DNA from: an uncultured Pseudomonadota bacterium
Lineage (GTDB): Bacteria > Myxococcota_A > UBA796 > GCA-2862545
Assembly (NCBI GenBank): GCA_913061235.1
Contig: CAJXTB010000019.1
Span: forward strand, 1 to 64,000
Length of the DNA stretch: 64,000 nt
Reading direction: 5' to 3'
Both the position numbers and the translations under genes were made by a program. The notes under the pieces are model-generated. The model saw only the letters and a list, made by a program, of their open reading frames with translations, had not been told where the DNA came from and searched no databases. Below are positions 16,244 to 23,130 of this stretch, one piece after another. The first letter of the stretch is position 1, and each line of letters begins with the position of its first letter.

Positions 16244-17026
16244 TTGAGGCGGTGCTTCCTGGCCGGCTTGAGCCTGGGGTTCTTGTCGGTCGCACAGGCC
16301 GGCAATATCGTCCTCGTCTCAGACATGACAACCGCGCACAATGCAGCTCCCGGCTCGATTGTGCGAGGCATTCTTGAGGTTCGTAACACCGGTGATGAGG
16401 CAGAGTCACTATCCCTGTCGCTGAGGGACTTCGCCACGCGCGCGCCCGATACCCGAGACGTCATGGACACAGGCACTACCGACCGGTCCATGGGTTCGTG
16501 GCTGTCCATGGAACAGGATGCACTGACCATCCCCCCGGGCCAGCTTCGCTCCATTCCCTACCAGATTCAGGTACCCGAGGACCTCGACCTAGAAGGAACC
16601 TACTGGACCATCCTCATGTTGGAGGAAGGCAGCACTCCCACCGTTGCGACAGCCAACGGGCTCTCCCTGATGCAGCGCTCGCGCATTGCCACACGCGTGC
16701 TGGTCAATGTAGACGGCGGCTCGAGGGTGGTGACGTTCACAGCGAGCGGCCTTGAACGGCAAGGCGAGAGCACGCTGTTCTACACAGACATCGAGAACAC
16801 AGGCACAACCGCTCTTCCGCTAGCTCCGAAGCTGGAGTTGTACGACCAGCAGGGCCATAAACAAGCTACCTACCGCAGTCAGCAGGCCACCCTGTATCCA
16901 GGAAGCAGCTGGCGCTATTCTATTGACCTGACGGCGGCTCCACCTGGCGACTACACAGCCATCCTCATTGCGGACGGGGGAGCAGGTGCACTCTTCGGTG
17001 CTCGTCACCCTGTTCACTTGGACTAG
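16244..17026 (+). CDS. Periplasmic chaperone-like / DUF916-like Ig-fold protein
   Basis: The product has 260 residues. A TTG immediately after the previous stop opens a signal peptide (LAGLSLGFLSVAQA), and no better start exists in frame. Two Ig-like beta domains are suggested: the first with VRGILEVRNTGDEAESLSL and IPYQIQVPEDLDLEGTYWTI, the second with FYTDIENTGTTALPLAPKLE and PGDYTAILIADGG. The layout resembles pilus chaperones and the DUF916-type proteins that accompany WxL subunits. Its end overlaps the start of the next gene by about 40 bases. It is likely the periplasmic partner of proteins A and B. Confidence 0.65.
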   Translation: MRRCFLAGLSLGFLSVAQAGNIVLVSDMTTAHNAAPGSIVRGILEVRNTGDEAESLSLSLRDFATRAPDTRDVMDTGTTDRSMGSWLSMEQDALTIPPGQLRSIPYQIQVPEDLDLEGTYWTILMLEEGSTPTVATANGLSLMQRSRIATRVLVNVDGGSRVVTFTASGLERQGESTLFYTDIENTGTTALPLAPKLELYDQQGHKQATYRSQQATLYPGSSWRYSIDLTAAPPGDYTAILIADGGAGALFGARHPVHLD

Positions 17027-20000
17027 CGCGCTCGTCCTGTGGTGTGGGCTGATGAGCACGGCGTCTGCGGTGACTGTCGACCCGCCAGTGGAGAGTCTTG
17101 TCGCTGAACCGGGTGAGGCTATCACTCTCGCCTTCACCGTTCAGGGTGACGGAACAGCGGCACGCGTCGACCCACAAGTGCTTTTGCCGCCGCAGTGGCG
17201 CTTGCTCGTACCTGAGAGCCCGTTCGGGGTAGGCCCCACCGACACACTGGTGAAGTTGCTGACAGTGGTCGTGGCCATCAATGCAGACGTGGGTTCGTAC
17301 GACGTCCGGTACGTTGTGGACGACGGTGAAGCGATTGCCGAAGTCGAAGTCGCCGGACGTGACGACATCCAGCTATCGATTCGTGGCTTGCCGGAAGCTG
17401 TCGTTCGCGGCGCCACAATCCCAGTCGACATCGCCGCGTACAACAGCGGAAACACAACCATATCGCCCGTCTTAGAGTTTCGTGGCTCACGTGGTTTCGC
17501 ACCCATGCAAGCCCTGACAATCGGCCCCATCGCCCCCGGCGAGAGCCTGATCACTACCGTACAGGTGGTCTCGCGTGGGGCAACCGGCGAGACGTCATTG
17601 CGGGTCGCTGCCAGACAAGACGACGCCATCATCGGGCGCGCATCAACCAGTAGTCTCACCGCCATGGCCCAAGACGAAAAGCGAAGGGACCGCGTCATTC
17701 TGCCAGCGTCTGTTCAGGCTGCAGCCTGGATGACCCACCTGCGCAATGAGACCCAAGTCGGACCTCAGCTGTCCGCCGAGGCACACGGATTCCTAGACCC
17801 GGGGAACGACCACCGCCTCGATGTCTCCCTGCGGGGCCCTGACGTGCTCGGACTGACTGCAGGGGGCTTCCTTCGCAGTGAATACCGTGGTCGCTACACC
17901 TACAAAGATGGCAACCGGGGTGTCGATGTCCGCCTCGGAGATGAGCGCTACAACGACACCGTGTTCACAGTGCGGACGCGACGGCAACGGGGTGTAGCCG
18001 TCGATGTGGACCTCGGGCGTCTCACCGTTGGCGCAATGGCGGTTCGAGACCGCTTCGTAGACGCCCCCCGAACGGTCATCGGGCCGCGCGCTTCGCTTGA
18101 GCTGTCAAAGGGTCTGTCGGTCGGTGCTTCTGCCGTCCGACAACAACAGGGCGATGACGTGTCGTTCATTGCCAGCCAGTTTGGACAGTTCGACAAGAGC
18201 GCGCGCGACCGACGGTTCTTGGTTCGCTACGAGGTCGCGTACGGCGATGGCGGCGCAGGCCATGTGGACGGCAGCACGCGAGTGGGCCCCGTCCTCATCA
18301 GTGCGACCGCTCGTCACGCCGAGTCTAGCTTCACCGGGGAGTTTGCAGGCCAGACACTCGCGACAGCACGTACAACCCTACGAATCGGACAGAAGCTGAC
18401 GCTGTCCGGAAATGGAAGCTACCGACTCGATGCCGGACGCGACGCGGATCCAATGCCACGCGACACAACGTTTCGTGTCGCCGGAGCCACTGCAACTTGG
18501 CGCCCAAGCACGCTGCTGACCACGGCTCTGTCCTACCAATACCGTGACCTGCTCGACCGTCTAGGGCCAGGCTTCCAGCGAAGCCAGAACACAGTGACGG
18601 TGTCTGCATTGACCCAGGGAACAGCGGGTCGGTTGCAGGTCTCGGGCATCGCTCGATTTGGCGAAGACGAGCAATACGGAAGCGGAAACAGCCAAGAAGT
18701 CCGCATGACAGCGTCGACTACAGCGCGTCGACCAGTGACCCTGTACACAACCACCGGCTACGTCATCGCGACTGGAGCGCAGACCCTTGCTCGCGAGCGC
18801 TTCTACAGCAGCGCGGGCGTGCGCATCATTTCCGCAGACGACTGGCAGAGCGACCTGTCCTACGGCGTCAACCTCTTCCCCCAAGGCTTCCTACCCGCAC
18901 AGCATCAAGCGCGGGCGCACCTGTCCTGGCGGCTGCCGTGGTCTCACCTCATCAACGCAGACGCCAACTTCAGCTCCGGGCTCAACAACGTACGTGCGTC
19001 CGCCATCGCTGGGTACGAGGTTCCCTTCGGCATCCCGACTACACGCACCGGCATCGACGGCCGCGTCATGGGCCACGTTCTACGTGCAGACGACACCCCT
19101 GTTGTGGGCGCCCAGATGCGCTTCGGCAACTACATCGCACAGACCGATGACACCGGACGCTTCTTGTTCAACGGCCTCTCTCACACCGTTCAGCCCCTGG
19201 ACATTGTGCGCTCCACACTTGCAGCCGGCGAAGTTGTAGACGGTGATCTGCCTCAGGATGTCCGCCCCAACAAACGCAGCGAACAGCTCGAAGACATCAT
19301 CATTCGGGTGGTCTCAGCAGGTCAGGTAGAGGCTGAAGTCTGGCGATACAGCCTGTCCAACCCACTGCAGGTGAGACTCGCCGGCGCCCCTCCAGAATAC
19401 CGCCGAGAGTCTCCCGTTGTCGGAGCTCCGCTGACCCTGACCAACGGTGATAAGACTCGCTTCGGCCTAACAAATGAGCGTGGCATCGTAGAGGTTGGTC
19501 AGCTGCCTCCTGGGCGGTGGTCGGCAATGCTCGCGTTGCCGCGCGACGAACCTGACGTGCGCATCGAACAGCCCCGCTTCATGGTGATGGTCGACGGCGG
19601 CGAGATGTCGTCGTACACACTCCGCGTTGTCCCCGATGTTCTGCCGCTAAATCTCCTTGTCGACAGCAGCATCACCTTACGCGTGGGCGAACAGGCCACA
19701 CCCGAAACACCGCTCACTGTCCCAACAACCGACGAGCCAACAGGTGACGAGCCCACCAGTGAGGAGCTCACAACACTCGTTCGCCTTGAGATTCGGCCCG
19801 AAACACTCATTCTCGACCCGAGTGAAGAGGTCCAGCTTCGAGCGCTCGCCGTCTACAGCGACGACACCGCACAGACCCTCGAAGACGGGGTGAGCTGGAG
19901 CTCGAGCAATCCTGGTGTCGCTCGCGTCAACGGAGACGGCTTGCTGACGGCACAGGCAGACGGGAACACCCAAGTGACGGCACAGGTCGCGCAGACCACA

Positions 20001-21050
20001 TCGGCTCCGGTCTCCGTTGAAGTTGTCGACGTGCCCGTTGTTGGACTCAGTCTCGATACCGCCGAAGTTCTGTTGAGCGTCGGCCAGCGCCAGACACTCG
20101 GCGTGCAAGCGGTGTATGTTGACGGCCGCATTCGCGCAGTCAGCGAAGGACTGCAGTGGACGATCAGCGATACCCAAGTAGCTAGAGTCACATCCTCGGG
20201 AGAGCTCATCGGCGTGGCCTCGGGGACCGCACAGGCGTGGGCGGAGTTCGCGGGCGTGCGGACCTTCCCAGCGACGGTCGTTGTCGGTAGCGTATCTGCG
20301 GTCACGTTGAACCTGACCAACACCCAACTGCGTCCTGGAGACGCCTTCCGCCCCGTCGTCAACGCGTCCCTCGCGAACGGGGACAAGCAGGACGTCACAG
20401 CCTTGGTGGAGTGGCGAGTTGGAAATCCCGATGTCCTCCGCCAGTTCGGCGTGGAGTTCGTTGCCCAATCACCCGGAAATACAACGCTGACAGCCGTCTT
20501 CAACGGGCGACCGTCGAACGGCGTTCAAGTCACCGTACAAGCCCCACTTGGCCTGCTCGTTGAGCCCGAAGTCGACACAATACCTGTCGGAAAATCCACC
20601 CGCTTTGCCGCCCGCGCCATCTACCCAGATGGCACCACAACTACGCCGGAACGCCCCACATGGTCCACCTCGGACAGCACCCGCGCATCGGTCACCACAG
20701 AGGGCCGGGTCACAGCAATTCGGACTGGAACCGTGGAGCTTGTGGTGGAGGCGGACGGCACAAGCACTCGGCGGTCGCTGCGCATAGTGGACGGCCAACG
20801 CACCATGCGCCCCAACGTCGCACAGCAGCGTCTCGAAGCCGGCGACAACCAGCTGCGTGTCATTGGAGCCTACGCCGACGGGACCGAAGTCGACCTGACA
20901 CCTTGGGTGCAGACCTGGACGTCATCCAACCCAGAGGTCGTTCGCGTCAACAGCACGGGCGTCGCAACGGAAGTGTCCAACGGTCAGGCCAACATCACCG
21001 CGCGTCTAGACGGTGAGACGGTCATCTTCGAGTTGGATGTTCGGTTGTAG
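16986..21050 (+). CDS. Usher-like outer-membrane barrel with BIG2-type Ig repeats
   Basis: The product has about 1354 residues. Signal and Ig-like N-terminal domains (residues ~1-230, CARDB/NEW3-like: VDIAAYNSGNTTISPVLEF) are followed by a long beta-barrel region (~240-680, alternating strands, many Arg/Tyr/Gly). A carboxypeptidase-regulatory-like domain (GHVLRADDTPVVGAQMRF ... DDTGRFLFNGL) sits where ushers carry a C-terminal plug-like domain. About four to five BIG2-like repeats (WSSSNPGVARVNGDGLLTA type, ~940-1354) complete it. A Pro/Thr/Glu-rich linker precedes the repeats. GTG 16986 was taken; TTG 16968 and GTG 16998 are alternatives. It may export or anchor proteins A and B. It is not a standard PapC sequence. 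Confidence 0.7.
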   Translation: MHSSVLVTLFTWTSALVLWCGLMSTASAVTVDPPVESLVAEPGEAITLAFTVQGDGTAARVDPQVLLPPQWRLLVPESPFGVGPTDTLVKLLTVVVAINADVGSYDVRYVVDDGEAIAEVEVAGRDDIQLSIRGLPEAVVRGATIPVDIAAYNSGNTTISPVLEFRGSRGFAPMQALTIGPIAPGESLITTVQVVSRGATGETSLRVAARQDDAIIGRASTSSLTAMAQDEKRRDRVILPASVQAAAWMTHLRNETQVGPQLSAEAHGFLDPGNDHRLDVSLRGPDVLGLTAGGFLRSEYRGRYTYKDGNRGVDVRLGDERYNDTVFTVRTRRQRGVAVDVDLGRLTVGAMAVRDRFVDAPRTVIGPRASLELSKGLSVGASAVRQQQGDDVSFIASQFGQFDKSARDRRFLVRYEVAYGDGGAGHVDGSTRVGPVLISATARHAESSFTGEFAGQTLATARTTLRIGQKLTLSGNGSYRLDAGRDADPMPRDTTFRVAGATATWRPSTLLTTALSYQYRDLLDRLGPGFQRSQNTVTVSALTQGTAGRLQVSGIARFGEDEQYGSGNSQEVRMTASTTARRPVTLYTTTGYVIATGAQTLARERFYSSAGVRIISADDWQSDLSYGVNLFPQGFLPAQHQARAHLSWRLPWSHLINADANFSSGLNNVRASAIAGYEVPFGIPTTRTGIDGRVMGHVLRADDTPVVGAQMRFGNYIAQTDDTGRFLFNGLSHTVQPLDIVRSTLAAGEVVDGDLPQDVRPNKRSEQLEDIIIRVVSAGQVEAEVWRYSLSNPLQVRLAGAPPEYRRESPVVGAPLTLTNGDKTRFGLTNERGIVEVGQLPPGRWSAMLALPRDEPDVRIEQPRFMVMVDGGEMSSYTLRVVPDVLPLNLLVDSSITLRVGEQATPETPLTVPTTDEPTGDEPTSEELTTLVRLEIRPETLILDPSEEVQLRALAVYSDDTAQTLEDGVSWSSSNPGVARVNGDGLLTAQADGNTQVTAQVAQTTSAPVSVEVVDVPVVGLSLDTAEVLLSVGQRQTLGVQAVYVDGRIRAVSEGLQWTISDTQVARVTSSGELIGVASGTAQAWAEFAGVRTFPATVVVGSVSAVTLNLTNTQLRPGDAFRPVVNASLANGDKQDVTALVEWRVGNPDVLRQFGVEFVAQSPGNTTLTAVFNGRPSNGVQVTVQAPLGLLVEPEVDTIPVGKSTRFAARAIYPDGTTTTPERPTWSTSDSTRASVTTEGRVTAIRTGTVELVVEADGTSTRRSLRIVDGQRTMRPNVAQQRLEAGDNQLRVIGAYADGTEVDLTPWVQTWTSSNPEVVRVNSTGVATEVSNGQANITARLDGETVIFELDVRL

Positions 21051-21105: not shown

Positions 21106-21135
21106 TTGACATCCAAAGCGACGCATCCTTACCAT
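21106..21135 (+). promoter_or_regulatory. Sigma70-type promoter of the RiPP operon
   Basis: A perfect TTGACA (-35) at 21106-21111 is followed after 18 bases by TACCAT (-10) at 21130-21135. The start codon of the precursor gene is about 30 bases further on and has AGGAGG in front. It is the clearest housekeeping-type promoter I see in the window, and it separates the RiPP genes from the usher-like gene upstream. Confidence 0.6.
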
Positions 21136-21165
21136 CCAGCCGCACTCAACCGGCCAGGAGGCCTG

Positions 21166-21546
21166 ATGTCCCTACAAGATATGCTACTAAAATCCGCTCT
21201 AATTGGCCTAACCGCTGGTACCATGATGGCCTGTGGCGCTGCGGATGAGGCGACTCAAGCGGCCACAGAAGCTGCCGCTGCCGCTGAAGGTGCGGCACAC
21301 ACTGCTGGTGACGCCGCAGAAGGTGCGGCACACGCTGCTGGTGACGCCGTCGAAGGTGCGGCACACGCTGCTGGTGACGCCGTCGAAGGCGCTATGGAAC
21401 ACGGCGAACAAGCGGCCGCTGCTGCTGCTCACGAGTGCCGCGGCATGAACGAGTGCTCCGGCCAAGGTGGCTGTGGTGTCGAAGGGCAGAACGAGTGTCG
21501 GGGACAGAATCCATGTTCCGGCAAGGGTGGCTGCAAGACCTCATGA
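21166..21546 (+). CDS. Cys-rich RiPP precursor peptide with lipoprotein-like signal (bufferin/MNIO substrate)
   Basis: The product has 126 residues. An N-terminal signal ends MMACG, a lipobox-like sequence with Cys23. An Ala/Glu-rich helical spacer follows with three 11-residue repeats (EGAAHAAGDAV). The C-terminal ~35 residues carry two copies of a motif ECRGxNxCSGxGGC, giving six Cys. Such Cys-rich C-terminal cores next to DUF692 enzymes are substrates for Cys modification in bufferin and methanobactin-type pathways. AGGAGG lies 7-12 bases before ATG 21166. The stop overlaps the MNIO start (ATGA). The mature product should be periplasmic or membrane-anchored and metal-binding; copper is a guess from family knowledge. 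Confidence 0.85.
   Translation: MSLQDMLLKSALIGLTAGTMMACGAADEATQAATEAAAAAEGAAHTAGDAAEGAAHAAGDAVEGAAHAAGDAVEGAMEHGEQAAAAAAHECRGMNECSGQGGCGVEGQNECRGQNPCSGKGGCKTS
21286..21384 (+). repeat. Three 33-bp tandem repeats inside the precursor gene
   Basis: Units at 21286-21318, 21319-21351 and 21352-21384 are almost identical and encode 11-residue blocks EGAAHTAGDAA, EGAAHAAGDAV and EGAAHAAGDAV. A partial fourth block follows. The 11-residue period with small and charged residues predicts an amphipathic helix. The near identity at DNA level points to recent expansion and possible copy-number variation among strains. Confidence 0.85.
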
Positions 21547-22394
21547 TGAAGCGGCCAGCCGTCTCGCGGTTCGCCGTGCCCGACCTTGGTATTGGGGTTG
21601 GTTACCGGGTTCCTCACTACCGTCAGGTCGTGGAAGAACAACCCGAGATGGACTGGTTTGAGGTTCTCTCTGAGAACTTCATGGTGGATGGTGGCTCGCC
21701 GCGGCATTGGCTGCGCGAGCTCGCCAAACGCTACCCCCTCGTGCTGCACGGCGTGGCCACCTCCCTAGGTGGAGAGGGAGACCCTGGGCATCTGCGCCGA
21801 CTCGCTGCTCTTGTCGCCGAGGTCCGCCCCCCTTGGGTCAGCGACCACTTGTGTTTCACCGGTAGTCACACAGCGAACGCCCACGATCTGCTGCCGTTGC
21901 CGTACACCCCAGAAGTACGCGACCACGTCATTGGCCGTATCCGCGAGGTAAGCGAAGCGGTCGGCACCCTGTACGCCGTCGAGAATGTGTCGTCGTACTT
22001 GAGTTGGAAGGCGAGCGAGGTCCCAGAGTGGGAGTTCCTCACCCAAGTTGTTGAGGGCGCCGACTGCGGCATCTTACTCGACGTCAACAACGTCTTCGTC
22101 TCCTCCGTCAATCATGGCTTTGACCCCATGGAGTACATCAACAACATCCCGCTGGACCGCGTCGTACAGATTCATCTCGCCGGTCACAGCATCAAAGATG
22201 GCTACCGCCTCGACACGCATGACGGCCCAGTGTGCGACGAAGTGTGGGAGCTGTATGCCGCCGTCATCCAGCGCATGGGCTCGGTCTCGACGCTCATCGA
22301 ATGGGACGGGGATGTCCCCGAGTTCAGCCGTCTGCAGCAAGAAGCCAACCAAGCGCGCACCATCCGCGACGCCGCGTTGCTCGCCCTTGTCTAG
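21543..22394 (+). CDS. MNIO-family (DUF692) multinuclear iron RiPP-modifying oxygenase
   Basis: This is a 283-residue TIM-barrel enzyme of the MbnB/TglH/bufferin B group. Conserved family segments are present: GIGVGYRVPHY, DWFEVLSENFM, YPLVLHGVATSLGG, WVSDHLCFTG, YAVENVSSYLSW, GILLDVNNVFVSSVNHGFDP, VVQIHLAGH, LDTHDGPV and STLIEWD. The His, Asp and Glu residues are those that bind two or three irons in characterised members. Members oxidise Cys residues of precursor peptides. ATG 21543 overlaps the precursor stop; a second ATG at 21546 is equally possible, and either start is translationally coupled. Its partner is the next gene. Confidence 0.93.
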   Translation: MMKRPAVSRFAVPDLGIGVGYRVPHYRQVVEEQPEMDWFEVLSENFMVDGGSPRHWLRELAKRYPLVLHGVATSLGGEGDPGHLRRLAALVAEVRPPWVSDHLCFTGSHTANAHDLLPLPYTPEVRDHVIGRIREVSEAVGTLYAVENVSSYLSWKASEVPEWEFLTQVVEGADCGILLDVNNVFVSSVNHGFDPMEYINNIPLDRVVQIHLAGHSIKDGYRLDTHDGPVCDEVWELYAAVIQRMGSVSTLIEWDGDVPEFSRLQQEANQARTIRDAALLALV

Positions 22395-22419
22395 TCTTCC
22401 ACCCGACTGGCGTGAACAG

Positions 22420-23130
22420 ATGGTCGAGATGATTCGAGGGAACCGTCCACTCGATGGCACGTGGTTCCGCGGAGGACCGGTGTTGTCGCCCACCGACCAG
22501 ATCGGGGTGTACGCCGAGCAATACCGACTGCGCCTTCCAGAGGCTGTCATCTACGAGCTCCGCGGCCTCGAAGCGCTGCTCGGTGACGCCCTGCCGCCAC
22601 TCGTGGCCCAGTATCTGCAGCACTACCCATCGCAGACCTGGACCCTCGACCGAGTAGCCGACCAGTTCGAGGAATTCTTGGCCAGCATCCATGCACCGGT
22701 CGAACAAACAGACATGGCACGCCTCGACATTGCCGTCAGTCACGCCTTCACTGCACCGGATGCGCGAACCTTCGACGCCAGCACGCTGCAAGCAGAGACC
22801 CAGCTCGTCCTTCAGCCGCCCGTTGTCCTGCTCGAGCTCTCCACGAGTGTCTTTCGCACCAGAAGTGCAGCACTGTCAGGCCTCGACCTACCCGAGATGG
22901 AGTTTGCCGACTTCCGCGTGGTCCTCTTTCGGCCGGAGCGAAAAATCCGGCATCTTGTCCTCGCAGACGCAGCCTACAAGCTGCTCAACGCATTCAAGAC
23001 CCCAACCAGCTTGGCAGACGGTCTACAGACGCTCTCACAAGATGCATTCACCGCAAACGCACTCGCCGCAAACCTTGGCGATTGGATGCGAACGTTCGCG
23101 AAGTCGCGCATTCTCGGACCGCCAGCCTAA
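22420..23130 (+). CDS. DUF2063 (MbnC-like) partner of the MNIO enzyme
   Basis: The product has 236 residues. The N-terminal part VYAEQYRLRLPEAVIYELRGLEALLGD is the DUF2063 putative DNA-binding-like domain seen beside DUF692 proteins (typical Y-x-x-x-x-R-L-x-E-A form). The C-terminal half (VVLFRPERKIRHLVLADAAYKLLNAF) matches the MbnC-like part that recruits the precursor peptide. ATG 22420 is used; an in-frame TTG at 22387 would overlap the MNIO stop and add the plausible segment SSLPPDWREQ, and neither has a clear ribosome-binding site. The enzyme pair should work as a heterodimer. No DoxX gene follows, which some bufferin operons have. Confidence 0.88.
   Translation: MVEMIRGNRPLDGTWFRGGPVLSPTDQIGVYAEQYRLRLPEAVIYELRGLEALLGDALPPLVAQYLQHYPSQTWTLDRVADQFEEFLASIHAPVEQTDMARLDIAVSHAFTAPDARTFDASTLQAETQLVLQPPVVLLELSTSVFRTRSAALSGLDLPEMEFADFRVVLFRPERKIRHLVLADAAYKLLNAFKTPTSLADGLQTLSQDAFTANALAANLGDWMRTFAKSRILGPPA

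Follow-up and report, generated by a model that had tools for sequence, protein, structure and literature searches.

The 64,000-nucleotide window analysed here carries, on its + strand, an operon of three overlapping genes that encode a 126-aa Cys-rich precursor, an MNIO/DUF692 enzyme and a DUF2063 partner. An MNIO RiPP operon of this composition had been proposed in an earlier sequence-only reading, and all three genes were found where that reading placed them, with matches to PF05114 (338.6 bits; cut-off 25) for the enzyme and to PF09836 (30.5 bits; cut-off 27.2) for the partner. The features of the locus are as follows.

21106–21135, + strand: possible sigma-70-like promoter, TTGACA-18-TACCAT (consensus match, within chance expectation)
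21156–21162, + strand: probable Shine-Dalgarno region (AGGAGG) of the precursor gene (from sequence)
21166–21546, + strand: precursor gene, Buf2-type, 126 aa, lipobox Cys23
21166–21234, + strand: predicted signal peptide through lipobox Cys23 (SALIGLTAGTMMA/C), from Cys23 conservation and the h-region motif
21286–21389, + strand: 33-bp tandem repeat encoding an 11-residue Ala/Glu/His spacer repeat
21436–21474, + strand: core repeat 1, CRGMNECSGQGGC
21496–21534, + strand: core repeat 2, CRGQNPCSGKGGC
21543–22394, + strand: MNIO (DUF692), putative bufferin maturase, BufB-like (NF050167, PF05114, tree, conserved motif residues)
22387–23130, + strand: predicted DUF2063 + RRE partner, PME-type 1 (BufC-like), 247 aa (PF09836, AlphaFold2, Foldseek)

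The precursor and MNIO genes overlap by ATGA at 21543–21546, and the MNIO and DUF2063 genes by TTGTCTAG at 22387–22394, which supports coupling of the genes; the DUF2063 gene starts at TTG 22387 or ATG 22420 and ends at 23130. The "strong promoter" described earlier is unproven, because the single match to the consensus lies within the 0.5 ± 0.8 matches expected by chance. Directly adjoining the operon upstream is a gene for a 1360-aa Big_2-domain protein (window 16968–21050), and downstream lies a convergent gene for a beta-lactamase-family protein; neither neighbor suggests a functional link to the operon. Among the genes next to the operon, none was recognisable as a copper gene or a regulator. 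The operon also contains no DoxX gene, as the sequence-only reading had remarked, and the only DoxX match of the genome is on another contig (C9).

The precursor begins with MSLQDMLLKSALIGLTAGTMMAC(23)..., a stretch that resembles a signal peptide and ends in Cys23, an assignment made from the sequence and its homologues. In the alignment of 15 homologues, Cys23 was nearly invariant and G14 and L15 of the signal peptide were invariant; the lipobox reads TMMAC, which is non-canonical. The h-region motif A-[LIMFV]-x-G-[LIVMF]-x-[AIS]-[GA] occurred in 14 of the 15 family precursors and in none of 37 background lipoprotein-like signal peptides, a comparison in which the motif was written after the family had been seen and the background was small and picked by a simple rule. 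In the family precursors the motif is A-x-x-G-[LI]-x-A-G-like, and a similar stretch appears in Buf1 precursors, for which the profile match was weak: the Buf1 alignment matched the window precursor over the signal peptide only, at 14% probability. According to preliminary published evidence, the recognition sequence includes the signal peptide (PMC12452194). The arrangement of a lipobox Cys and a spacer, which had been taken as unfamiliar among MNIO systems, is indeed present, but its novelty did not hold up, given that about 16% of Buf2 bufferins have a predicted lipoprotein signal peptide (PMC12452194) and that NedA is an MNIO-modified lipidated peptide purified in triacylated form (PMC12636315). 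The spacer, previously called helical, is a tandem repeat of an 11-residue unit, present in about 3.2 copies with 95% matches. It is poorly conserved in relatives, with a pairwise column identity of 0.35 versus 0.72 in the core. A conserved metal site in the spacer was considered, with three of four His lying near one helix face, but was rejected for a segment that is a tandem repeat and is not conserved.

The C-terminal core (HECRGMNECSGQGGCGVEGQNECRGQNPCSGKGGCKTS) contains six Cys, to which Cys23 is additional, and the two Cys-rich motifs reported earlier, ECRGMNECSGQGGC and ECRGQNPCSGKGGC, were confirmed in the precursor. A search of 58 genomes from its family and order returned homologues with the same layout; the core was common to all 14 aligned homologues, the lipobox Cys to nearly all, and the six core Cys were invariant in the 15-precursor alignment. 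All 15 aligned precursors matched NF050166 (BufA2) at E≤0.01, and hhalign comparison of the core with the Buf2 alignment gave 97.4%. The score of the window precursor, 18.5 bits, is below the curated BufA2 cut-off of 60, as are those of canonical relatives from the same family (24.9–58.9 bits); more distant homologues exceed the cut-off (60.4–79.2 bits). This shortfall would fit an unrelated Cys-rich lipoprotein that stands before an MNIO gene by chance, but we consider that explanation highly improbable, as it is strongly contradicted by the recurrence of the Buf2 core before MNIO genes across many genomes, some of whose records carry the labels of other phyla. A Buf2 precursor is recognised by an N-terminal signal peptide, six conserved Cys and a position upstream of MNIO and PME1 genes, all of which were found here, and on sequence homology the core is assigned as the six-Cys Buf2 core.

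In the search of core and enzyme against curated families that the sequence-only reading had recommended, the precursor stayed under its cut-off and the MNIO passed NF050167 (MNIO_BufB) with 337 bits (cut-off 310). The enzyme was under the cut-offs of the HvfB, ApyH, ChrH and MbnB models and scored lower against each of them (HvfB, 224.5 bits) than against NF050167. In a tree of 107 MNIO sequences, made by a quick search with SH-aLRT support only, it fell within a supported set of 18 rows (SH-aLRT 97), of which, besides the window, 14 have an adjoining Buf2 core and 3 are unassigned. The His/Asp/Glu/Asn active site of the MNIO superfamily was found in an alignment of 108 sequences, to which 3bww and TglH were also aligned. 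The enzyme keeps H68, D100, H101, E146, N147, D179, N182, H210, D223, H225, E252 and D254, the twelve active-site motif positions that are at least 90% conserved over the 108 MNIOs. By these sequence comparisons, the MNIO is a bufferin maturase of the BufB-like type.

For the DUF2063 partner, a phmmer search against the PDB gave no useful match. Its AlphaFold2 model (pLDDT 94.2, built from 33 sequences comprising the window and fetched loci) had as top Foldseek matches 8hi7 (TglI; 1.1e-7) and 3dee (NGO1945; 1.9e-7), and the RRE protein TbiB1 was a weak fold match. PME-type 1 proteins, in the sense of PMC12452194, have a DUF2063 signature and an RRE-type domain in about 250–260 aa. The match to PF09836 and the TglI/NGO1945 fold, in a protein of 247 aa, therefore place the partner, as modelled, in PME-type 1 (DUF2063 + RRE).

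Gene content and order, the predicted partner fold and the homology of enzyme and core all point to a bufABC-type operon in minimal form, encoding a lipid-anchored Buf2 bufferin (captophorin) that would carry 5-thiooxazole and buffer copper, a reading to which we give a probability of roughly 0.85. Points against it are the low BufA2 score of the precursor, the replacement of Lys at all four core Cys-Lys positions, the non-canonical lipobox and the lack of a recognisable copper gene or regulator beside the operon. Its chemistry, lipidation and metal are predictions from relatives: characterised MNIO–PME1 products contain 5-thiooxazole and generally bind Cu (PMC12668002). The PME-type 1 partner would bind the precursor in the cytosol, probably via the conserved signal-peptide h-region, and the MNIO would oxidise core Cys there, converting each to 5-thiooxazole with the loss of 4 H. 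Sec would then export the peptide, Lgt would diacylate Cys23 and LspA would cleave (both enzyme families are present in the genome). In the periplasm the tethered core, kept at a distance from the membrane by the fast-evolving Ala/Glu/His spacer, may then bind excess Cu(I). The product is probably a membrane-anchored metal chelator, as had been proposed. The accompanying suggestion of a new product is contradicted by the known Buf2 core and by the MNIO score above the NF050167 cut-off, and nothing points to a new metal.

Among known systems, Buf2 bufferins (BUF_6/12Cys; NF050166, NF050167) share with the window the C-x-G-x-N-x-C-x-G-x-G-G-C spacing, signal peptide and six core Cys, the precursor–MNIO–DUF2063 order, the MNIO family and the partner fold; the window system differs in that neither repeat has Lys behind its first or second Cys, in missing the BufA2 cut-off and in having no DoxX. 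The captophorin Cys-Lys group (PMC12668002/PMC13097082) likewise combines an MNIO, a PME1 and a Cys-rich precursor, but differs in its multiple Cys-Lys motifs and in the residue after the catalytic Asp. In DAG-RiPPs or RiPP-lipoproteins, such as lipo-NedABC and DybA (PMC12636315), a lipobox Cys also precedes an MNIO-modified core; here the core is of Buf2 type rather than EGKCG or CPACGMG, and lipidation is predicted only. TglHI and MbnBC are related to the window pair in enzyme sequence and partner fold, but they are distant in sequence and differ in precursors and chemistry.

The core reads CRG/CSG/CRG/CSG, with Arg or Ser at all four Cys-Lys positions, and the only Cys-Lys dipeptide left in the precursor is C123-K124, near the C-terminus. 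This change from Cys-Lys to Cys-Arg or Cys-Ser, the true motif difference, had gone unflagged in the earlier reading. Lys followed the second Cys in 131 of the 139 repeats counted in 78 precursors that have a full repeat. Only two precursors, that of the window and one with a single matching repeat, lacked Lys behind both the first and the second Cys in every repeat counted. A degenerate DNA pattern that describes the Lys-type repeat occurred 85 times (the sum of listed counts) in 35 of the 71 genomes of the class and not at all in the source genome, and the same pattern with WSN (Ser and some other codons) at the Lys codon occurred 5 times in three genomes, three of these occurrences being in the source genome; both patterns gave zero control matches. 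The loss of Lys beside the reactive Cys is a real peculiarity of the system, and its only unusual feature. EGKCG-type FonBC tolerates some residues around the Cys and not others, and left test motifs with a charged residue after the Cys unprocessed (PMC12668002), so which Cys would react here cannot be assumed.

The source genome encodes a second Buf2-like lipobox precursor of 106 aa on contig C31 (L104 6585–6905), with a mixed core (CKG/CSG/CRG/CAG) and no adjoining MNIO or DUF2063 gene. Only one bufferin-type MNIO (338 bits) was found in the genome, the other two MNIOs scoring 111 and 57, and only one DUF2063 protein was over the cut-off, so the simplest inference is that the C31 precursor is matured in trans by the MNIO–partner pair of the operon. 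There is precedent for bufferin precursors whose genes lie apart from those of MNIOs (PMC12452194), and in two related genomes, G010 and G019, the Buf2 precursor (L111, G010:C598; L107, G019:C209) and the best bufferin-type MNIO are on different contigs. The idea that the C31 precursor marks a syntenic ancestral locus was rejected, as its neighbors differ from those that the precursor loci of G019 and G010 have in common. Elsewhere, a precursor-like ORF near a contig start (L115 44–277) precedes a bufferin-type MNIO and has a repeated KSSCSAEN[GS]C and no Buf2 core. Long Cys-motif proteins, possibly large MNIO substrates, precede the MNIO at L044, L067 and L140; the first two have C-x-G-x-N-x-C motifs, and that of L140 (303 aa) has a CxxCH motif and stretches that are rich in Asp and resemble EF-hands.

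The absence of the Lys-type pattern from the source genome and the mixed K/S/R/A core of C31 would be compatible with a Buf2 core under relaxed constraint, in which Cys-Lys loss reflects decay or only partial modification, with metal bound by thiols that are left unmodified. We regard this as improbable, because the six core Cys, the Gly/Asn positions, the conserved enzyme residues and the operon are intact, and the Cys pattern is kept in two separate precursors. Slightly less probable still is a specialised Buf2 variant, in which Arg or Ser after the Cys tunes which Cys is modified or which metal is bound. Ser in both window core repeats and Ser/Ala in the C31 paralogue speak for it, as does the Gly that follows the catalytic Asp in the window MNIO, a position occupied by Phe in Lys-Cys enzymes and Asp in Cys-Lys enzymes (PMC12668002); however, the clade MNIOs L134, L126, L122 and L120 have the same Gly with an adjoining Cys-Lys core, and covariation between this residue and the substrate residue after Cys was accordingly rejected. 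That the MNIO still modifies the Lys-free core (CRG/CSG), selecting other Cys or favoring another metal, and that one pair matures two unlinked lipid-anchored precursors, is a combined proposal that we hold to be doubtful.

Returning to the bufABC-type reading, the system is best filed under Buf2 bufferins, as a variant that is divergent and poor in Lys, and not as a new RiPP class; it is placed as a variant because the BufA2 score and the single Cys-Lys fall short of the family, and the enzyme, partner, gene order and Cys pattern agree with it. An apparent new RiPP class is thereby removed and placed in Buf2. The conserved h-region motif of the signal peptide is relevant to how enzyme and partner recognise a precursor without a classical leader. 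As a Buf2 system without the Cys-Lys motif by which PMC12668002 defines the group, beside relatives that share its active-site Gly and have kept their Lys, the locus is a natural experiment that could test the role of Lys in 5-thiooxazole formation or metal binding.
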